Of a DNA stretch of 49,659 nt, positions 21,574-32,059 are shown piece after piece. The stretch is from NCBI GenBank assembly GCA_030603635.1, contig JAUVXK010000007.1, positions 1-49,659 of the forward strand, read 5' to 3'. Made by a program: the position numbers and the translations under genes. The stretch is from Burkholderiales bacterium. Lineage in GTDB: Bacteria; Pseudomonadota; Gammaproteobacteria; Burkholderiales; Burkholderiaceae_C. The notes below the pieces were generated by a model. That model was not told where the DNA came from. It saw only the letters and a list, made by a program, of their open reading frames with translations, and did no database searches. The number at the start of each line of letters is the position of its first letter. Position 1 is the stretch's first letter.

Positions 21574-23391
21574 TCAGAAGGTGAACCCCACACTCAGGTG
21601 CAGCCGCAGGCGCTTGCTGTCCACGCCGTACGCCAGGTCGGCCTGCAGGGGCCCCACGGGGCTGTTGTAACGCACCCCGGCGCCCACGCCCACCTTGGGC
21701 TGAAGGTCGGCCCCCCGGTTGGCCACCGCGCCGGCATCCAGGAAGACCACGCTTTCCCAGGCGGTTTTCTGGCCGTCGCGCCACAGGGGGCGTTGCCATT
21801 CCAGGCTGGCGACCGTCAGCAGCTTGCCGGCTTCCACGCCGCCGGACGGCAGGGGCACGCCGATCTCGCGCTGGGTATAGCCGCGCACGCTCTGGTCGCC
21901 GCCGGCCAGAAACCGCTGAGTGACCGGCACGGGTGCGTCCTGAGGGGCCCAGATCGCGCCGCCCTCCAGCCTCAGGGCGACCCGGCTCGGGCGCACGCTT
22001 GCAGTCCCGACCGGCCAGTACCCGAGCCAGCGCACCCGGCTGCGGAGGTAAGGCTTGCGGTCCTGTGTCAGCGTCACGCCGGCGCCCAGCTCCACGGCCA
22101 GACCGTAACCGCGCTGGGGAGCTGTGAGGTCGTCAAAGGCCCGCCGCGTCCACGCATAGTTGGCACTCACCGATGTGGCGGCCGGCGTGGTCATGCCCGG
22201 TTCCCGGACGCGGGCGCGGTCGAATTGCAGGAAGTAACTGCGATCCAGCACCGTGCCGTCCTGCGCCTGCCCGACCCGGAACTGTTCACTCTGCGTCACG
22301 CGGTTTCCGTCTTCCTGTCGCCTCCACTCACCAGCGGTCAGCCAGCGCCAACCTTTGTCGTCCACGGGGGTGCTCAGGTCCAGCCCGAGGGTGGTGGTGT
22401 CGCGCTCGGCCTGGAATCGGGACAGGGCGCGCCAGCCGAGACCGGGCAGGCGGTGGTGGGTGTGTTCGAGGGTGAACCGCGGACCGCGGTCGGTGCTGGC
22501 GCCGACCCCGATCACCACCTTCTGCAGCGGCGCTTCCCGCACCCGGGCCACCACGGTGTGCTGCGCCGGTTCTCCATCCGGGGCCAGCAACACGAAGGCC
22601 GACGGGTAGTAGCCGCTGTCCGTCAGGCGTCGCTGGGCGGCCTGGAGCAGGGCTTCGTCGTAGGGCTCTCCAGGGCGTACGCCTGCCAGACGCACCAGCC
22701 GGCGTGCCATCTCGGCGTCGTAGCGCTCGGCCCCTTCCACGGTCACGTCGCCAAAGAAGTGCGCAGGGCCCGAGTCCAGCACCAGGTACAGGTTCGCCTC
22801 GTTGGCCTCGGGCACGATGTCGGCCAGGCTGTTGATCAGTTGGGCACGGGGATAGCGCACTTCGGTCAGGGTGCGCAGGGCGCGCGATTTGGCGTTGTCC
22901 CAGGCCGACTGGCTGAAGGCCTGGCCCACAGGGAGCAACCACTCGCCTGTCAGTCGCTCGCGCTGTGCGGCAGCCTCTGGGGCGTCTTGGGCGTCGCCTT
23001 CCAGGGTGACCTGGATCAGCGCGACACGTGTGGGCGGACCGGGTTCGACGCGGATGTGCACCTGCGGTACAGGCCGGTCCAGGCTCGTCAGCCGCACCTC
23101 CACCGTCGGGGAGAAATGCCCCTGGGTGCCCAACAGGTCGCGCAGGTTCTGGGGCGCCTGCGCCACCAGCCGTTCAAGCTCGGCGCGGCTCAGATCGGGC
23201 AGGGTTTTGAAGCGCTGCAGCTCGGCATGCCGGGCCAGAAAGGCGTTCAGTGGCTCAGGGGCTTCGATCGTGACCTCGAACGAGGGCGCTTCCTGTGCCT
23301 GTACCCAGGTGGCAGGGATCAGCCAGATCCAGCAGCACAGGCTCCACCAGAGGCCCAGGCGCCATGGGTTCGGCCCGCGATGCACGTTCAC
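21574..23391 (-). CDS. tamA: Translocation and assembly module outer-membrane protein TamA (Omp85 family)
   Basis: Outer-membrane beta-barrel protein of 605 residues. A signal peptide (LGLWWSLCCWIWLIPATWVQA, shown in part) is followed by three POTRA-like periplasmic domains (about 40-260) and the 16-strand Omp85 barrel. The barrel contains the lid-loop type motif VRGYTQREIG and ends in a terminal phenylalanine (HLSVGFTF), as Bam recognition requires. The probable start is GTG 23391, whose GTGA overlaps the TGA stop of the upstream VWA gene by 4 nt; GTG 23385 is an alternative. It is translationally tied to both neighbours, with tamB starting 2 nt after its stop. Confidence 0.92.
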   Translation of the reverse strand: MNVHRGPNPWRLGLWWSLCCWIWLIPATWVQAQEAPSFEVTIEAPEPLNAFLARHAELQRFKTLPDLSRAELERLVAQAPQNLRDLLGTQGHFSPTVEVRLTSLDRPVPQVHIRVEPGPPTRVALIQVTLEGDAQDAPEAAAQRERLTGEWLLPVGQAFSQSAWDNAKSRALRTLTEVRYPRAQLINSLADIVPEANEANLYLVLDSGPAHFFGDVTVEGAERYDAEMARRLVRLAGVRPGEPYDEALLQAAQRRLTDSGYYPSAFVLLAPDGEPAQHTVVARVREAPLQKVVIGVGASTDRGPRFTLEHTHHRLPGLGWRALSRFQAERDTTTLGLDLSTPVDDKGWRWLTAGEWRRQEDGNRVTQSEQFRVGQAQDGTVLDRSYFLQFDRARVREPGMTTPAATSVSANYAWTRRAFDDLTAPQRGYGLAVELGAGVTLTQDRKPYLRSRVRWLGYWPVGTASVRPSRVALRLEGGAIWAPQDAPVPVTQRFLAGGDQSVRGYTQREIGVPLPSGGVEAGKLLTVASLEWQRPLWRDGQKTAWESVVFLDAGAVANRGADLQPKVGVGAGVRYNSPVGPLQADLAYGVDSKRLRLHLSVGFTF

Positions 23392-24575
23392 TTTGACAGC
23401 GCCCGCATGGCCTCCTCCAGCCCCTTGAGCGTGAGCGGGTACATGCGCTGGCCCATGAGCTGCTGGATGATGGCAATGCTCTGGCGGTACTGCCACATGC
23501 CCTGCGGCTCGGGGTTGATCCAGGCAAAGCGCGGGAAAGCATGCGTGAGGCGCTGCAGCCATTCGGCGCCGGCCTCTTCGTTGTTGTACTCGACGCTGCC
23601 GCCAGGCTGCAGGATTTCGTAGGGGCTCATGGTCGCGTCGCCCACGAAGATGAGCTTGTAATCCTTGTTGTACTTGCGGATCACGTCCCACGTTTCGAAC
23701 TTTTCGGCGTAGCGGCGGCGGTTGTTCTTCCACACGTAGTCGTACACGCAGTTGTGGAAATAGTAGAACTCCAGGTGCTTGAATTCGTTCTTGGCGGCGC
23801 TGAAGAGTTCCTCCACCCGCTGGATATGCTCGTCCATGGTGCCGCCCACGTCCATGAGCAGCAGCACTTTGACGTTGTTGTGCCGCTCCGGCACCATTTT
23901 GATGTCGAGCCAGCCCGCGTTGGCGGCCGTGGCGCGGATGGTGTCGGGCAGGTCCAGCTCCAGCTCGTTGCCCTCGCGCGCGAATTTGCGCAGGCGGCGC
24001 AGCGCCATCTTGATGTTGCGCGTGCCCAACTCCTGCGTATCGTCGTAGTCGCGGTAGGCGCGTTGCTCCCACACTTTCACGGCGCTCTTGCCACCGCCCT
24101 TGCCGCCGATGCGGATCCCTTGCGGGTTGTGGCCGCCGTGGCCGAAGGGGCTGGTGCCGCCGGTACCGATCCAGCGGTTGCCGCCCTCATGGCGTTCTTT
24201 CTGCTCTTCCAGCCGCTTCTTGAGCGTCTCCATCAGCTCGTTCCAATCCATCCTGGGCGCGTTGGCCTTTTGCTGGTCACTCAGCAGGCGTTCGATCTCC
24301 TTGCGCAGCCAGTCGGCGGGGATCTCCTTGCTGAAGTCGGCCAGCATCTCCACGCCCTTGAAGTAGGCCGCGAAGGCGCGGTCGAACTTGTCGAAGTGCT
24401 TCTCGTCCTTCACAAGCGCGGTGCGGGCCAGATAGTAGAAGTCGTCGAGCGTGCAGGCGTCCGGGTTGCGCGGACCCACCACGTCCTGCTTCAGGCACTC
24501 CAGCAGCGTCAGGTATTCCTTGACCGAGACCGGCAGCTTCGCGGCGCGCAGGGTGTAGAAGAAGTCGATCAGCAT
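23388..24575 (-). CDS. VWA-domain protein, CoxE-like partner of a MoxR ATPase
   Basis: Cytoplasmic protein of 395 residues. The N-terminal half (MLIDFFYTLRAAKLPVSVKEY) is the helical CoxE-type region with a glycine-rich stretch near residues 145-165. The C-terminal half is a von Willebrand A domain (about 225-370). The metal site reads DVGGTMD where the classic MIDAS is DxSxS, a Gly change that I believe is usual in the CoxE group. MoxR-VWA pairs act as chaperones that insert metal cofactors or remodel complexes. moxR lies 55 nt upstream on the same strand, and its stop overlaps the tamA start. The client is unknown. Confidence 0.88.
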   Translation of the reverse strand: MLIDFFYTLRAAKLPVSVKEYLTLLECLKQDVVGPRNPDACTLDDFYYLARTALVKDEKHFDKFDRAFAAYFKGVEMLADFSKEIPADWLRKEIERLLSDQQKANAPRMDWNELMETLKKRLEEQKERHEGGNRWIGTGGTSPFGHGGHNPQGIRIGGKGGGKSAVKVWEQRAYRDYDDTQELGTRNIKMALRRLRKFAREGNELELDLPDTIRATAANAGWLDIKMVPERHNNVKVLLLMDVGGTMDEHIQRVEELFSAAKNEFKHLEFYYFHNCVYDYVWKNNRRRYAEKFETWDVIRKYNKDYKLIFVGDATMSPYEILQPGGSVEYNNEEAGAEWLQRLTHAFPRFAWINPEPQGMWQYRQSIAIIQQLMGQRMYPLTLKGLEEAMRALSK

Positions 24576-24630
24576 GACAGGACTCCCGTGGAAAGCTCAA
24601 AGCGCCCCGTGGCCGGCGGCGCGTGGTGGC

Positions 24631-25473
24631 TCATCGGTTGCGCTGGTTCATGAACACCAGCTTCTCAAACAGCGTGATGTCCTGCTCGTTCTTGAGCAAC
24701 GCCCCCACCAAGGGAGGCACGCTCACCTTGTTGTCCTGGCTTTGCAGCGCCTCCAGCGGAATGTCCTCGGCCATCAGCAGCTTGAGCCAGTCCAGCAGTT
24801 CGGAGGTCGAGGGCTTCTTCTTCAGCCCTGGGAGGTTGCGGATGTCGAAGAAGGTCTTCATCGCCGCAGTCAGCAACTCGTCCTTCAGGCCGGGGTAATG
24901 CACGTCCACGATCTGCTTCATGGTCGTGGCGTCGGGGAACTTGATGTAGTGGAAGAAGCAGCGGCGCAGGAAGGCGTCTGGCAGTTCCTTTTCGTTGTTA
25001 GACGTGATGAACACCAGTGGCCGGTGCTTGGCCTTGATGAGTTCTCGCGTCTCGTAGCAGTAGAACTCCATGCGGTCGAGTTCGCGCAGCAGGTCGTTCG
25101 GGAATTCGATATCGGCCTTGTCGATCTCGTCGATCAGAAGCGCCACGGGCTGCTCGGCCGTGAAGGCCTGCCACAGCACGCCCTTGACGATGTAGTTCTG
25201 GATGTCCTTGACCCGGTCGTCGCCGAGCTGGCTGTCGCGCAGCCGGCTGACCGCGTCGTACTCGTACAGACCTTGCTGCGCCTTGGTGGTCGACTTGATG
25301 TGCCACTGCAGCAGCGGCATGTCGAGGGCCTGGGCCACTTCCTCGGCGAGCATGGTCTTGCCGGTGCCGGGCTCTCCCTTGACAAGCAGGGGGCGCTTGA
25401 GCTGGATGGCCGCGTTGACGGCGAGCATCAGGTCCTGGGTGGCGACGTAGTTGGAGGAGCCGGTGAATTTCAT
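24631..25473 (-). CDS. MoxR-family AAA+ ATPase
   Basis: Cytoplasmic AAA+ ATPase of 280 residues. Walker A GEPGTGKTMLAEE lies near residue 41, Walker B LLIDEIDKAD near 113, and sensor 1 VFITSNNEKELPDAFLRR near 150; the short C-terminal lid is typical of the MoxR group. I chose the ATG at 25471-25473 (MKFTGSSNYVAT) because family members start here and the upstream in-frame stretch lacks similarity. It forms a pair with the VWA gene 55 nt downstream, the conserved chaperone arrangement also known as CoxD-CoxE in carboxydotrophs; no CO dehydrogenase genes are in the window. Confidence 0.93.
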   Translation of the reverse strand: MKFTGSSNYVATQDLMLAVNAAIQLKRPLLVKGEPGTGKTMLAEEVAQALDMPLLQWHIKSTTKAQQGLYEYDAVSRLRDSQLGDDRVKDIQNYIVKGVLWQAFTAEQPVALLIDEIDKADIEFPNDLLRELDRMEFYCYETRELIKAKHRPLVFITSNNEKELPDAFLRRCFFHYIKFPDATTMKQIVDVHYPGLKDELLTAAMKTFFDIRNLPGLKKKPSTSELLDWLKLLMAEDIPLEALQSQDNKVSVPPLVGALLKNEQDITLFEKLVFMNQRNR

Positions 25474-25553
25474 GGATCTGTGCCGGAACTGGGCCGCTGT
25501 CCCGAAGGATACGGCCAAGGGTTTTCAAGGGGATGGTGGGTGGAACGAGTCTA

Positions 25554-25559
25554 TATAAT
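25554..25559 (+). promoter_or_regulatory. Possible -10 element of the cytochrome c gene
   Basis: A perfect TATAAT lies 46 nt upstream of the cytochrome c start in the divergent gap with moxR. No convincing -35 hexamer is found at 16-18 nt spacing, so this is tentative. Confidence 0.35.
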
Positions 25560-25604
25560 CGCGCGTTGATTTTTGTCAAACGTCCTTCTGATTGTGCTTG
25601 CAAA

Positions 25605-26270
25605 ATGAACAAACCGTTGTCCACCTTGTTGAAAACCGTTGTCGCAAGCGCGACCGTCGCCGTGTCTTTTGCTGCCCAGGCACAGGTGGCGGGTGACGTG
25701 AAGGCCGGAGAAGCCAAGGCCGCCATGTGCATCGGCTGCCACGGCATTCCGGGCTACCAGAACAGCTTCCCCGAAATCCACAAGGTGCCCAAGATCTCCG
25801 GGCAGACGGCACAGTTCATTGCCGCATCGCTGGTGGCATACCAGCGCGGCGACCGCAAGCACCCCACCATGCGTGGCATCGCCGGCTCGCTCAGCGAGCA
25901 GGACATCGCCGACCTGTCGGCTTTCTATGCCGCCCATAACGGCGACGTGAAGGCGCCGGAAGCGCCTCGTGCGCCCAACGCCATCGTCGCTGCCCTGCTG
26001 GAGCGCGGCGCATGCGCCTCCTGCCACGGCGCCAACTTCAGCAGCCCCATCGACCCCAGCTACCCCAAGATCGGCGGCCAGTATGCCGATTATCTCTACG
26101 TGGCACTGAAGTCTTACCAGGTCCAGGGCAACCCCATCATCGGCCGAAGCAACCCGATCATGGGTGGCATCGTGGCCCAGTACTCGCTGCAGGAACTGCG
26201 CCAGATGGCCAACTACCTGGCGTCCGTGCAGGGTGAACTGGCCACCCGGCCCCAGCCCCGTTTCCGTTGA
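25605..26270 (+). CDS. Di-heme c-type cytochrome (cytochrome c4-like)
   Basis: Periplasmic electron carrier of 221 residues. The signal peptide (MNKPLSTLLKTVVASATVAV, cleavage after AQA near residue 26) leads to two similar cytochrome c domains. Each domain has a heme motif, CIGCH near 42 and CASCH near 140, and a candidate axial methionine (the HPTMRGIA and NPIMGGIV segments). This twofold layout is that of cytochrome c4, which passes electrons to terminal oxidases. The ATG at 25605 begins a proper signal peptide; the longer in-frame start at 25533 does not. It is divergent from moxR, and the TonB-dependent receptor gene follows after 44 nt. Confidence 0.9.
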   Translation: MNKPLSTLLKTVVASATVAVSFAAQAQVAGDVKAGEAKAAMCIGCHGIPGYQNSFPEIHKVPKISGQTAQFIAASLVAYQRGDRKHPTMRGIAGSLSEQDIADLSAFYAAHNGDVKAPEAPRAPNAIVAALLERGACASCHGANFSSPIDPSYPKIGGQYADYLYVALKSYQVQGNPIIGRSNPIMGGIVAQYSLQELRQMANYLASVQGELATRPQPRFR

Positions 26271-26314
26271 AACCCCGCTACAGAGACAGGTCAGGTTGAC
26301 AAGCAACTGATACC

Positions 26315-28297
26315 ATGGCACCCATGCGTGCCTTGACCCGCCACTGGCCAGCCCCGCGATGTGGAGCCCCCCGGCTTCTCTCGTGGGGTTTTCTGTTGGC
26401 CGCAGGTTGGGCGCAGGCCTCGTCGGGTCTGCCGACCGAGGCCGATTTCTTCAGCGACGTGCCGATGGTCCTGACCGTGAGCCGCCTCGCACAGCCGCTG
26501 CAGGACACGCCCGGAGCGGTCACCGTGATCGACCGTGAGCTCATCCGCCAGTCGGGTGCGCGCACGCTGGCCGAACTGATGCGACTGGTTCCGGGCTACC
26601 TGGTGTCGGGCTACAACGGTGCCAATCCGGTGGCGGCCTATCACGTGCCGGTCGATGAGCTGGGGACGCGCAACCTCGTGCTTGTCGATGGCCGCTCGGT
26701 CTACTCCTCGACCTACCTGGGCGGAACCGTCAGGGGGCTCTACATGGTCGCTCTTGAGGACGTGGAGCGGATCGAGGTGCTGCGGGGTTCCAATTCGGCC
26801 GCCTACGGCGCCAATGCGCTGTTCGGGGTGATCAACGTCATCACCCGGCATCCGCAGGACACCATCGGTGGGACCGTTGCCGTGGCGGCGGGCGAGGAGG
26901 GCATCCGCGATGCCTATGCACGCTACGGCTGGGGAGACGCGGATGCCAGTCACCGTCTGTCGGTGGCCCAGCGACGCGACAATGGCTACCGCTTCGTCAA
27001 CGACGATGCACGACTGGTGACGCTGAAGTGGCGCAGCGATATCCGCCTCAACGCCCAGTCCGAGCTCGTGCTCTCGGCCGGTTATGCGGACAACCGGGCC
27101 GGCGAGGGGGTTCCGAGCACCACGCCCGGCCACTTCGACAATCCGGAGCGTGACGTTCGCTGGCGCAGCGCCTACCTGCAGGCGCGCTGGACCTATCAAC
27201 CGTCGGAGGACGAGTCGTTTCAAGGCACGGTGAGTTGGAGTGAGGAGCAGGCGGTGGATGATTTCATCTACCAGCGCCCGGGCTTGCAGGGGGTGGTCAT
27301 CGACTTTGGCAACCGGGAACGCCGGCTGCATGCCGAGTTCCAGCATCAGTTTCGTGCCAGTGATAGCCTGCGTTGGGTCTGGGGTGCCGGACTGAAAGAA
27401 GACAGCGCCGTTTCCCGCCCCCTGTTCTTTCGCGACAGCCGTATCCGCCAGTGGGATGCCCGGTTGTTCGGCAACGTCGAGTGGTCCATCGCCGACGACT
27501 GGGTGCTGAATGCGGGGGTGTTTGCCGGCAAGAATGGCGGCACGGGTGACTATGTCTCGCCGCGGCTCATGGTGAATTACCACCTGCTGCCGGGGCACAC
27601 CGTCCGCTTTGGGGTATCCACCGCGCAGCGGGCGCCGACCCTGTTCGAGCAGTTTGCCGATGTGCGCTACTTCTTTCCCAATGGAACCTTCATCACACGC
27701 ACCCTGGTCTCGAGCGGGCAGGTGGAACCCGAGCGCCTGGTCAGCCGCGAAATCAGCTATTACGGGCGCTTCCCCGAGGTCAACCTGACCGTGGATGCCC
27801 GCCTCTACGATGAGCGGTTCGATCGGGAGATCGACACCGTGTCCACCGTGGGGCTGGAGCGGGATTTCGTCAACACCGACGGTTTCCGGACCCAGGGCCT
27901 GGAATACCAGCTGCGCTGGCAACCCCGGCCGGGCACCCAGTTCCTCTGGAACCACAACCTCAACCGGTTTCGGTGGACCAACCCTGCCAATGCGGACCGA
28001 AACATCCCTCCTCGCCAGTTCTCCACCCTCGGGTGGATGCAGGAGCTGCCCGACGACTGGTCCCTGGCCCTGTGGGTCTACTCCCGGGATCCCATGGCTT
28101 GGCGTGCGGTGACGAGCGGGCTTCCCCGGGATCGCCGGGTGGACCTGCGGTTGTCGCGGCAGTTCCGGTGGGGAGACACCCGCGCAGAACTGGCGTTCAC
28201 GGTCCATTCGTTGAACGGGTCTCGCAAGGAATTCACCCTTTCCCGGCCTTCGGTCTTCCCCCGCCGGGCATTCGCCTCCCTGCATGTGGAGTTCTGA
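26315..28297 (+). CDS. TonB-dependent outer-membrane receptor
   Basis: Outer-membrane gated channel or receptor of 660 residues. A signal peptide ends near AQA (residue 31), and the mature N-terminus includes a possible TonB box (VLTVSRL). The plug domain (about 55-165) contains TPGAVTVIDRELIRQSGART, LVLVDGRSVYSS and VERIEVLRGSNSAAYGANA. The 22-strand barrel ends with the terminal aromatic LHVEF. No N-terminal signalling (STN) domain is present, so it does not talk to an anti-sigma factor. The start is ATG 26315 or 26324, both without clear ribosome sites. Its end overlaps the binding-protein gene by 14 nt, and a diguanylate cyclase follows. Ligand unknown. Confidence 0.92.
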   Translation: MAPMRALTRHWPAPRCGAPRLLSWGFLLAAGWAQASSGLPTEADFFSDVPMVLTVSRLAQPLQDTPGAVTVIDRELIRQSGARTLAELMRLVPGYLVSGYNGANPVAAYHVPVDELGTRNLVLVDGRSVYSSTYLGGTVRGLYMVALEDVERIEVLRGSNSAAYGANALFGVINVITRHPQDTIGGTVAVAAGEEGIRDAYARYGWGDADASHRLSVAQRRDNGYRFVNDDARLVTLKWRSDIRLNAQSELVLSAGYADNRAGEGVPSTTPGHFDNPERDVRWRSAYLQARWTYQPSEDESFQGTVSWSEEQAVDDFIYQRPGLQGVVIDFGNRERRLHAEFQHQFRASDSLRWVWGAGLKEDSAVSRPLFFRDSRIRQWDARLFGNVEWSIADDWVLNAGVFAGKNGGTGDYVSPRLMVNYHLLPGHTVRFGVSTAQRAPTLFEQFADVRYFFPNGTFITRTLVSSGQVEPERLVSREISYYGRFPEVNLTVDARLYDERFDREIDTVSTVGLERDFVNTDGFRTQGLEYQLRWQPRPGTQFLWNHNLNRFRWTNPANADRNIPPRQFSTLGWMQELPDDWSLALWVYSRDPMAWRAVTSGLPRDRRVDLRLSRQFRWGDTRAELAFTVHSLNGSRKEFTLSRPSVFPRRAFASLHVEF

Positions 28298-29237
28298 CCT
28301 GTCCCTGCTCAACCGGCGTCAGCTTTGGGCCTGGCCACTTGCTGCTGCGGCTCTGCTGGGTGTTCCGGCAGGGGTGGCTGGCCAGGCGGCACGTGTCCGG
28401 GTCTGGGTGTCCGATACGGGGGGGGCACAGGGCGAGGTCATCGGTCACCTGCGACGCCTCTGGGGGACGCAGGTGCAGATGGAGGTGCAGCCCGTGCCAC
28501 CCGTGCCGGTTCTGCCCGGCGAGGCGCGTTTGCACCTGACCTTGGGCGTGCGTCCACTGGTCGAACTTTCTGCCATGGTCCAGAGGCAGCCTGGTGCATG
28601 GACGGCACCCGTGCTGGCGGCCCTGCTGCCGGAGGCAGCGTATGCAGCGGTGGCGCGTTCATTGCCGGCGGGTTCTTCCGGGGTGTGGCTCGATCAGCCG
28701 CCCGAACGCTATCTGTCCCTGATCCAGCAAGCCATGCCACGCCGGCGCCGGGTCGGCGTCCTGTTCGGACCTGCCTCCGCAGCGCTGGAGCCTGCACTCG
28801 ACCGCGCGGCCAGCGACCGTCAACTGGTTTTGGTCAAGTCGCGTGTGCAGGAGGAGACGCAAAGCCTGTTCCCGCTGCTGCGCAACCTGCTTGCGGAGTC
28901 TGACGTGCTGCTGGCTTTGCCCGATCCGCTGATTTTCAACACCGCCACGCTGCAAAACATCCTGATTGCCACCTACCGGCAACGCATTCCCGTGGTCAGT
29001 TACGCCGAATCCCATGTCCGTGCCGGTGCCACGCTGAGCCTGTTCATCACACCTCAGGAGGTGGCTCGTCAGGTGGTGTCGGCCACCCAGGCCTTGTGGG
29101 CGGGAGGGTCGCTTCCCGCCCCCATGCGCGCCGCCAGTGGCACCGTGGCGGTGAACGAGCAGGTGGCCAGATCCCTCGGCCTGGACATGCCCGATGCCGA
29201 GGCGTTGCAACGGACCCTGGCAGGAGAATCCCGATGA
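28284..29237 (+). CDS. ABC-type substrate-binding-like periplasmic protein, orphan, sensor partner
   Basis: Exported protein of 317 residues with an N-terminal signal sequence (hydrophobic to about residue 33). The C-terminal half resembles the ABC_sub_bind (PF04392) fold: RRRRVGVLFGPASAALEPAL, PVVSYAESHVRAGATLSL, and an end with VAVNEQVARSLGLDMP as in that family. There is no ABC permease or ATPase beside it. Instead it overlaps the receptor gene (14 nt) and the diguanylate cyclase gene (4 nt, ATGA), so the three are made together. I infer that it binds a ligand in the periplasm and signals to the cyclase rather than feeding a transporter. Domain assignment is by eye. Confidence 0.75.
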   Translation: MWSSDLSLLNRRQLWAWPLAAAALLGVPAGVAGQAARVRVWVSDTGGAQGEVIGHLRRLWGTQVQMEVQPVPPVPVLPGEARLHLTLGVRPLVELSAMVQRQPGAWTAPVLAALLPEAAYAAVARSLPAGSSGVWLDQPPERYLSLIQQAMPRRRRVGVLFGPASAALEPALDRAASDRQLVLVKSRVQEETQSLFPLLRNLLAESDVLLALPDPLIFNTATLQNILIATYRQRIPVVSYAESHVRAGATLSLFITPQEVARQVVSATQALWAGGSLPAPMRAASGTVAVNEQVARSLGLDMPDAEALQRTLAGESR

Positions 29238-30589
29238 GACGTCTGCAACAGGCCATGGGGATCCGGGTTCGACTGTGGCTGGCGGCTGCCCTGCCGGCGG
29301 TTCTGGTCACCCTCTCGCTGCTGTGGGTGTTCATCGACCGGCAGGAGCGTGACCTCACCTCCGCCCTGGCCGACCGGGTGCGTGCGACGGCCTTGCAGGT
29401 GGCCGGGGCGGCAGAGTTCGGCCTGTTCGCCGGGGATCGCCAGAACCTGCAGCGCCAGGTGGACGGGCTGATGGCTTCCGATCCCGAACTGCTGGGGGTG
29501 GCGGTCATCCCAGCCGACGGTCGCTACCAGATCGTGGCAGGGGAGTTGCCCACCCTGCTGCCGCCGCTGAGCCATGAGGTGTCGACCCTGTTCGGGAAGG
29601 TGCTGGTGGTGGCTGTGCCCGTGCGCTACTCGTCCATCGAGGTGGACGATCTGTTCTCCCATGCACCGGAATTCCGGCGCGATCTCGCCCCACAAGGGCT
29701 GGCAGGACAGGTCGTGGTGGTGTTCGATCTGCAGAAGCTGCGGGAGCAGCGGCGTGATCTGCTGGTCTGGGCCATGCTGGTCACGGCGGTGGCCCTGGGA
29801 CTGGCGACGGTGATGTCCACGGTCATCGCCTCCAGCGTCACCGGGCCCATGGCCGGCGTGTCCAAGGTGGTCGAGCAGATCGGCCTGGGGCAGTTGCATG
29901 CCCGTGCCGACGTGTCGACCTCCGGGCCGCTGGCCGATCTGGCTCGTGGCATCAATGCCATGGCGTCCCGGATTGCCCTGACCCAGGACGACCTTCGACA
30001 CCAGGTGGCCGCAGCGACCCGGGAGTTGCGTCTGCAGAAAGAGGCAGCCGAGAAGGCCGCCCGCATCGACACCCTCACCGGAGTGGCGAGCCGGCGTGCT
30101 TTCACCGAGCGGGCGGAACTGGAAATCCAGCGTGCCTTGCGTTACCGCCAGCCATTGTCGGTGGTCATGGTGGACCTGGACCGCTTCAAACGCATCAACG
30201 ACACCTATGGACACGCCGTGGGCGATGCGGTGCTGGTCAGTTTTGCCCAGGTGTTGCTAAGCGATGTCCGCGAGGTGGACATGGTGGGCCGCCTTGGTGG
30301 CGAGGAATTCGCGGTCTTGCTGCCCGGCATTGAGGGGGAAGAGGCCATGCGGGTCGCCGAGCGCATGCGCGCCGCTGTCGAGGAGCTGGCGCTGATGGTG
30401 GGGGGCCAACGCCTGACGTTCACCGCCAGTTTTGGTGTGGCCGACTTCGATGGCGTGGAGGTGAATCTGCCGGGCCTGCTGGCGAAAGCCGATGCCGCCC
30501 TGTACCAGGCCAAGCATACCGGGCGCAACCGGGTGGTTTACGCCGACAATTCCGTCCCGTCGTTCGAGGACACGCGGCCGGCAGGCTGA
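29234..30589 (+). CDS. Membrane diguanylate cyclase (periplasmic sensor, HAMP, GGDEF)
   Basis: Makes cyclic di-GMP from two GTP. Of 451 residues, helix 1 spans about 13-35, the periplasmic domain 36-175 (CHASE8-like, as in YfiN/TpbB), helix 2 about 176-199, HAMP 200-252, a short coiled coil to 275, and the GGDEF domain 278-440. The active-site motif is GGEEF (355-359). An inhibitory I-site RxxD (REVD, 346-349) lies exactly five residues before it, so product inhibition is expected. There is no EAL domain. The ATG at 29234 has AGGAGAA upstream and overlaps the preceding stop (ATGA). Being third in the receptor/binding-protein unit, it is probably the output of that sensor. Confidence 0.93.
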   Translation: MRRLQQAMGIRVRLWLAAALPAVLVTLSLLWVFIDRQERDLTSALADRVRATALQVAGAAEFGLFAGDRQNLQRQVDGLMASDPELLGVAVIPADGRYQIVAGELPTLLPPLSHEVSTLFGKVLVVAVPVRYSSIEVDDLFSHAPEFRRDLAPQGLAGQVVVVFDLQKLREQRRDLLVWAMLVTAVALGLATVMSTVIASSVTGPMAGVSKVVEQIGLGQLHARADVSTSGPLADLARGINAMASRIALTQDDLRHQVAAATRELRLQKEAAEKAARIDTLTGVASRRAFTERAELEIQRALRYRQPLSVVMVDLDRFKRINDTYGHAVGDAVLVSFAQVLLSDVREVDMVGRLGGEEFAVLLPGIEGEEAMRVAERMRAAVEELALMVGGQRLTFTASFGVADFDGVEVNLPGLLAKADAALYQAKHTGRNRVVYADNSVPSFEDTRPAG

Positions 30590-30600
30590 ACCGCCGGCCG
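30575..30600. repeat. Inverted repeat at the cyclase/argH convergent end
   Basis: CGGCCGGC (30575-30582) and GCCGGCCG (30593-30600) form a perfect 8-bp stem with a 10-nt loop across the cyclase stop codon. There is no U-tract, so it is at most a weak bidirectional terminator for the convergent cyclase and argH transcripts. Confidence 0.35.
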
Positions 30601-30607
30601 GCACCGC

Positions 30608-32059
<1,452 letters not shown>

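Follow-up and report, generated by a model that had tools for sequence, protein, structure and literature searches.

The window analysed in this study, a stretch of 49,659 nucleotides (nt) from the genome of a Burkholderiales bacterium (contig JAUVXK010000007.1), carries between positions 26315 and 30589 three genes. Their predicted products are a TonB-dependent receptor of the outer membrane, a binding protein of the periplasm and a diguanylate cyclase of the inner membrane. A preliminary description, made from the letters alone, had regarded this trio as one coupled unit, and the coordinates of the open reading frames (ORFs) bear this out, each gene overlapping the next:

26315-28297, + strand: TonB-dependent outer-membrane receptor gene (ORF of 660 amino acids)
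28284-29237, + strand: periplasmic binding-protein gene (ORF of 317 amino acids)
29234-30589, + strand: inner-membrane diguanylate cyclase gene (ORF of 451 amino acids, counted from the ATG at 29234)
28284-28297, + strand: 14-nt overlap of the receptor and binding-protein genes, from the ORF coordinates; also in Tepidicella baoligensis (L269)
29234-29237, + strand: 4-nt overlap (ATGA) of the binding-protein stop and the cyclase start, from the ORF coordinates

Three coupled genes and their products

Pfam recognises the Plug and TonB_dep_Rec_b-barrel domains in the receptor and lists no STN domain, in agreement with the initial claim of a receptor devoid of STN; a signal peptide and a TonB-box-like stretch, VPMVLTVSRL, were read by eye. 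All 21 family receptors scanned combine Plug and barrel, and STN is listed in none of them (0/21). Solved relatives found by sequence, matching mainly in the Plug region, are the colicin I, enterobactin, haem and B12 receptors, and the best NCBIfam match of the window receptor is NF053590 (TOL_0244 receptor), at 171 bits against a curated cut-off of 645. The 2.9-Mb assembly yielded just three TonB-receptor Plug domains, one of them that of the trio receptor, as compared with 43 GGDEF matches.

The binding protein matches PF04392 (ABC_sub_bind) with 27.9 bits (cut-off 25.9), over residues 139-304 only. This is the single PF04392 match in the 2.9-Mb assembly, so that its description as an orphan ABC_sub_bind-like periplasmic protein holds. 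Its AlphaFold2 model (mean pLDDT 85.3) lies closest to 3lkv (Z 24.0, rmsd 4.7, 266 residues), and also resembles 6hnj (CD0873; Z 23.9, rmsd 3.1, 266 residues) and 3lft, a structure solved with tryptophan (Z 22.4, rmsd 4.5, 266 residues). As judged from this predicted structure, it is a type I periplasmic binding protein with the two-lobed ABC_sub_bind fold.

The cyclase is laid out as a transmembrane segment, an sCache_4-like periplasmic domain (about residues 36-168), a second transmembrane segment, HAMP and GGDEF; Pfam matches the HAMP and GGDEF domains (PF00990, 156.9 bits), and the best 50 structures listed in a fold search with the whole protein were all GGDEF-domain proteins. The GGEEF motif (355-359) and the I-site R346xxD349, five residues ahead of it, fall at conserved alignment columns, and on this reading of the sequence both the active site and the I-site are intact, as first described. 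The periplasmic domain had been called CHASE8-like, an identity that we reject: homologues of the cyclase match sCache_4 (PF09984) in 29 of 32 cases, and in 7 of 10 in another scan, and CHASE8 in 0 of 32. A single distant relative (L149) gives a CHASE8 match, and that one falls short of the cut-off. The window's own sensor remains below threshold for every sensor family, being too diverged for Pfam; by the matches of its homologues, the domain belongs to the sCache_4 family. Against NF053592 ('HK near YfiR-like') the window cyclase scores weakly (28 bits; curated cut-off 194).

As for the surroundings, a cytochrome c gene (25533-26270) precedes the receptor gene with a gap of 44 nt, and both the 14-nt overlap and the 44-nt gap to the preceding gene are identical in T. 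baoligensis. Divergent from the cytochrome c gene, at 23388-25518 on the - strand, lies a pair resembling a MoxR-type ATPase and a VWA/CoxE-type protein, and the gene downstream of the trio is convergent and argH-like (all read by eye). The G+C content of the trio is ordinary (66.4%, as against 66.2% for the window). No RNA family reached its gathering score between 25000 and 31500; the region 25300-31000 contained no promoter-like site and four terminator-like sites, with 3.5 expected.

Recurrence of the trio across the proteobacteria

The genes of related loci were marked with profiles built here and seeded from the trio members, some genomes giving more than one locus. At the level of the order, 148 of 399 genomes gave a match to the binding-protein profile, and the order-level set comprised 120 regions among the matches listed, together with L010, L011, L013, L014, L025 and the window. 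In this set the scores drop from 96 to 71 bits with none between, and the neighbourhood switches at that gap. We drew the border between strong and weak matches at 95 bits here and at 85 bits in the wider set, both values being picked after the scores had been seen. In the 97 strong loci, a sensor-domain protein is encoded directly downstream of the binding protein in 95, and an ABC ATPase motif occurs within 2.5 kb downstream in none, some flanks being shorter. The receptor gene immediately precedes the binding-protein gene in 61, stands at another place of the locus in 8 and was not seen in 28. The two strong loci without a sensor are L089, at a contig end, and L130, where by eye a DEAD-box helicase comes next. 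The 29 weak loci have no sensor downstream, an ABC ATPase motif in 20 and a receptor upstream in 3. The proposal that the trio has no ABC permease or ATPase thus stands for the ATPase; permeases were not searched for.

Wider searches matched 95 of 369 genomes across the class and 57 of 299 across the phylum, ABC-type matches included; 59 loci among the matches listed were annotated with 1.5-kb flanks, 4 of them being repeats. Three fell below 85 bits, two with ABC ATPases and one with neither neighbour; the remaining 52 have a sensor downstream in 50 and a receptor upstream in 44. The score step is small in this set, from 86 bits (sensor downstream) to 82 (ABC ATPase downstream). In total, among the 149 loci with at least 85 bits, the sensor is downstream in 145, the receptor directly upstream on the same strand in 104, and both in 100. 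The expected co-occurrence of the three genes across Burkholderiales was therefore found, and since the trio stands together in 100 loci and the 14-nt overlap recurs in T. baoligensis, this is more than chance. Near the window the distribution is patchy, as 15 of 60 relatives gave any match to the binding protein; in one contig scan with the window protein T. baoligensis was the sole match.

The two downstream genes are bound most closely. Of 145 loci, 92 allow a 4-nt overlap of the binding-protein and enzyme genes and 19 allow one of 1 nt, whereas the spacing from receptor to binding protein is looser (overlapping or no more than 20 nt in 67 of 97 measured); distances were taken to the start nearest the stop, a choice that favours overlaps. 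Over 100 loci the distance correlation between binding protein and sensor is 0.84 and stays at 0.60 when the receptor is controlled for, while the other two pairs retain 0.36 and shuffled correlations do not exceed 0.17. The core of the module is formed by binding protein and enzyme, more tightly linked than any other two of its parts, and the receptor is a usual but optional addition. The pair is together in 145 of 149 loci, the receptor directly upstream in 104. As for a fourth recurrent gene, the genes found most often around the module in 92 loci seemed to belong to a chromosomal context that a single lineage shares, among them a DnaQ-like exonuclease (named by eye); response regulators were among the neighbours in 7 of the 92.

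Looking from the sensor side in 250 genomes, with 58 strong binding-protein places used and weak ones left out, a strong binding protein lies upstream in 50 of 54 sensor matches of at least 121 bits and in 3 of 28 weaker ones. Among the 29 unmatched sensors, at least one (L324) has a weak binding-protein match upstream and another (G180:C14) follows one at about 540 nt; the four strong sensor matches lacking a binding protein stand beside response-regulator or chemotaxis-like genes (by eye).

The output of the enzyme is exchangeable. On a tree of 94 binding proteins, 62 are paired with GGDEF-bearing enzymes and 32 with histidine kinases, and the output changes 12 times (26.6 for shuffled labels), at least 8 of them across well-supported branches. 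This was a quick tree with a long-branch warning, and L089 and L130 (no sensor) and L092 (output unclear) were left out of it. Eight outputs had been left open by our own profiles; Pfam found a histidine-kinase ATPase domain in seven and only HAMP in L092. Since GGDEF and histidine-kinase outputs replace one another, it is the input pair that stays conserved, and the name of cyclic di-GMP (c-di-GMP) sensor given in the preliminary description, histidine kinases being frequent, covers only part of the family. Several loci with particular outputs may be recorded. In the L139-L144 branch the outputs are kinases with HisKA_3; L140-L143 have a response-regulator gene just upstream of the binding protein and no adjacent receptor, and L139 has a receptor. 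The binding-protein gene of L146 is flanked by two histidine kinases, each weakly matching the sensor profile. In L171, L177 and L178 a TonB receptor comes first, then a relative of the binding protein with a weak score (50-57 bits), then a GGDEF enzyme with an unmatched sensor, the enzyme of L178 lying about 390 nt further on; they are perhaps a second family of the same architecture.

An adjacent receptor was gained or lost 13 times by parsimony, on one quick tree and with branch support not considered. Ten genomes were picked for a receptor-less copy of the module: nine have a strong member of the receptor subfamily elsewhere, and G247 has a distant one only. In G320 the strong member is near a second module copy, and one match in G202 is likewise beside a second copy. 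The 45 receptor-less loci include a frame artefact (L011) and a few, for example L138 and L263, that stop at a contig end. A receptor-binding-protein fusion in L011 (genome G002) was considered and rejected, the DNA fitting, by eye, a one-base frame change near the receptor end; at L011:1480-1520 of this Tepidicella genome, the two genes share an open frame, apparently through that change, which is either genuine or an error of sequencing. The binding-protein gene of L025 is divided over two frames. One lineage (L069, L072, L074, L075, L083, L095, L098, L111) has the module directly after a DnaQ-like exonuclease gene, and its relatives L073, L077 and L086 have the receptor between that gene and the module, as if lost or gained. 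L064 and L067 carry tandem TonB receptors ahead of the binding protein and an extra GGDEF gene upstream.

A proposed relay across the envelope and its alternatives

How would a signal reach the enzyme? The module recurs in many proteobacteria, where it probably relays an outside signal across the envelope to c-di-GMP. We propose, with a probability of roughly 0.65, that the three proteins together signal across the envelope: the enzyme would be under the control of the binding protein, which in turn would be fed, or signalled to, by the receptor. A transporterless relative of ABC amino-acid-binding proteins would control the inner-membrane enzyme through its sCache_4 domain: ligand-dependent closure of the binding protein would alter its contact with the Cache domains and so change GGDEF output or, in relatives, that of a GGDEF-EAL protein or a histidine kinase. 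The receptor would be the input side, most likely importing, for sensing and not for uptake, a ligand that porins exclude because it is too large or too scarce. Control of the enzyme by the binding protein appears likely, while delivery of the ligand by the receptor falls a little short of an even chance. What was observed directly is the gene order, the coupling, the co-inheritance, the exchange of outputs and the predicted fold.

Type I binding proteins hold their ligands at strand ends. We set 94 module proteins against 21 relatives of ABC type, 20 from loci and one being 3lkv. The signature of the latter (A-T-P-[ST]-A-Q at 88-93, T-D-P at 116-118 and N after D214) was lost in the 94. These have a signature of their own: G88 in 94, A91 in 87, D137 in 82, Q138 in 81, P139 in 83, R142 in 82, P213 in 91, D214 in 90 (E in 4), Y231 in 82, R232 in 87 and S241 in 90. 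The window protein departs from it at two positions (P at 91, A at 241). In the predicted model several of these residues sit directly after strands, and the signature suggests a putative ligand site that is retained and would take a different ligand from that of the ABC relatives.

Several points weigh against the proposal. No strong binding protein precedes the sensor in 4 of 54 strong and 25 of 28 weaker matches to this sensor family, so that such a domain is able to function on its own. In 45 of 149 loci the receptor is absent from the adjacent position, and hence it need not adjoin. In the wider set, 13 of 52 loci have a sensor and no output domain seen within the 1.5-kb flank, and the sensor match is weak (16-37 bits) in the most distant loci. 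Score cut-offs were chosen post hoc and the profiles were trio-seeded, and contact-level covariation between columns of any two trio proteins did not rise above within-cluster shuffles, in a test whose power is low at 145 loci. Lastly, an experimental precedent cautions against reading control from gene position: the Pseudomonas aeruginosa kinases AgtS and AruS are not activated by three studied binding proteins encoded nearby, as stated in the available part of PMC11113362; that binding proteins stimulate receptors is, as such, established (PMC9602780, in the portion available).

Could the binding protein restrain the enzyme, as YfiR does? It would then inhibit the Cache enzyme until an occupied or TonB-energised receptor draws it to the outer membrane, a ligand in its cleft being secondary, if there is any. 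We consider this alternative somewhat unlikely. In its favour, outer-membrane YfiB sequesters YfiR, according to the accessible text of PMC3375315. DUF4154 (YfiR) was matched in 40 of 200 genomes of the order, and a hand count over the 30 loci listed, with 1.5-kb flanks, found a receptor next to the gene in 24 and an enzyme in as many, the two together in 19 and, in 18, the order of the trio. Two proteins lacking detectable homology therefore fill the same slot between TonB receptor and enzyme, which extends the parallel with Yfi drawn at the outset. Homology of the binding protein to YfiR, suspected from their alike C-terminal ends, was not found (hhalign probability 0.4%), and YfiR was absent from the structural matches listed for the binding protein, which is no proof of absence. 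The lack of detectable homology speaks against such restraint, as do the predicted two-lobed fold and a signature partly at strand ends, which suggest a kept ligand site, and the 45 of 149 loci without an adjacent receptor. On a FastTree phylogeny with long branches, module and DUF4154-cluster receptors fall mainly on separate branches, with 5 changes.

The receptor may instead be a separate uptake gene that shares the operon, binding protein and enzyme alone forming one system. Its 13 changes of adjacency (one quick tree) and its looser spacing point this way, and the strong members elsewhere in 9 of 10 genomes with receptor-less copies fit relocation as well as independence. Set against this, 104 of 149 loci from across the phylum have the receptor gene immediately before the binding-protein gene and on its strand, and one of the three Plug domains found in the window's assembly is at the trio; we judge this option unlikely. 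Less probable again, in our estimate, is direct sensing of the ligand by the Cache domain, with a binding protein that merely concentrates or buffers it. Cache domains commonly bind small molecules, and the sensors found without a strong upstream binding protein agree with such a role; tight coupling and co-inheritance (145/149 loci, overlap possible in 111/145) argue against it. A role of the binding protein in an ABC importer whose genes lie elsewhere, as its family name and fold might suggest, is very improbable, given that the assembly holds no second PF04392 protein (the importer itself was not searched for genome-wide), that the signature of ABC-type relatives is lost, and that an ABC ATPase motif is near 0 of 97 loci.

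Returning to the proposed relay, we would extend it to the phylum more tentatively still: three-part relays of TonB receptor, periplasmic switch and Cache/HAMP enzyme with exchangeable output may form one path, with an ABC binding protein put to a new use, or else the YfiR fold, to which it is unrelated, as the switch. If so, TonB receptors would inform c-di-GMP or kinase signalling with neither STN domain nor sigma factor. To our knowledge, few diguanylate cyclases and sensor kinases have been matched to a signal. For P. aeruginosa sensor kinases the same is said in PMC11113362. The link that such a module makes between an outer-membrane receptor and a named enzyme offers a handle, in that the ligand of receptor or binding protein would reveal the enzyme's signal. 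If the proposal is true, TonB-dependent receptors would have, besides STN/sigma-factor transduction, a second route to report on the outside, and the input pair, which evolution has combined repeatedly with different outputs, is a candidate for a sensor of general use. The module is widespread, orderly and apparently undescribed, and its proposed mechanism is of an expected kind; in the accessible portions of the literature searched, with subscription journals largely outside the scope, no description of the trio was recognised, its parts and the YfiR sister included.

Comparison with known systems

With YfiBNR of P. aeruginosa the trio shares an outer-membrane part, a periplasmic regulator and an inner-membrane HAMP-GGDEF enzyme, as far as the available text of PMC3375315 describes them. 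In that text, by Malone and co-workers, outputs are exchanged as well (GGDEF-EAL, histidine kinase), YfiB is frequently missing, and the word 'TonB' does not occur in the main text as available. All three defining parts differ, however. The regulator YfiR is DUF4154, whereas that of the trio is PF04392 with no DUF4154 listed; YfiB is a Pal-like lipoprotein, whereas the outer-membrane part here is a TonB-dependent receptor (YfiB elsewhere in the genome was not searched for); and the YfiBNR cyclase has a sensor of CHASE8/YfiN type, whereas trio homologues have sCache_4 and the window protein matches neither. The trio therefore lies outside YfiBNR. Similar in layout are the clusters of TonB receptor, DUF4154 protein and kinase or cyclase, which have the trio's gene order in 18 of 30 loci and a different periplasmic protein. 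The families NF053590 and NF053592 give the best receptor match and a weak enzyme match, both far below the curated cut-offs, and to judge from the NCBIfam names, receptors and kinases of this sort have already come to the attention of curators. FecA-type TonB-dependent transducers have an N-terminal STN signalling domain, in contrast to the trio-family receptors (0/21).

The TrpX-type ABC binding proteins (3lft, 3lkv, CD0873) share the fold, with Z 22.4-24.0 over about 265 residues, and of 45 proteins scanned PF04392 matches 43, as NF041285 weakly does. The window protein reaches 29.1 bits against the equivalog cut-off of 390, the A-T-P-[ST]-A-Q, T-D-P and D-N signatures are absent from the module proteins, and an ABC partner is lacking near the loci. 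In NspS-MbaA of Vibrio cholerae, NspS is a protein that we take to belong to a different substrate-binding protein (SBP) family from that of the trio. There, a periplasmic binding protein controls a membrane c-di-GMP enzyme (PMC8967002, in the part available), as is proposed for the trio; that part mentions no TonB receptor, and the ligands of NspS-MbaA, polyamines, are known. Just as there, the binding protein of the trio is encoded beside a membrane c-di-GMP enzyme and has no transporter. The trio is thus a variant of SBP-controlled signalling and not a member of YfiBNR.

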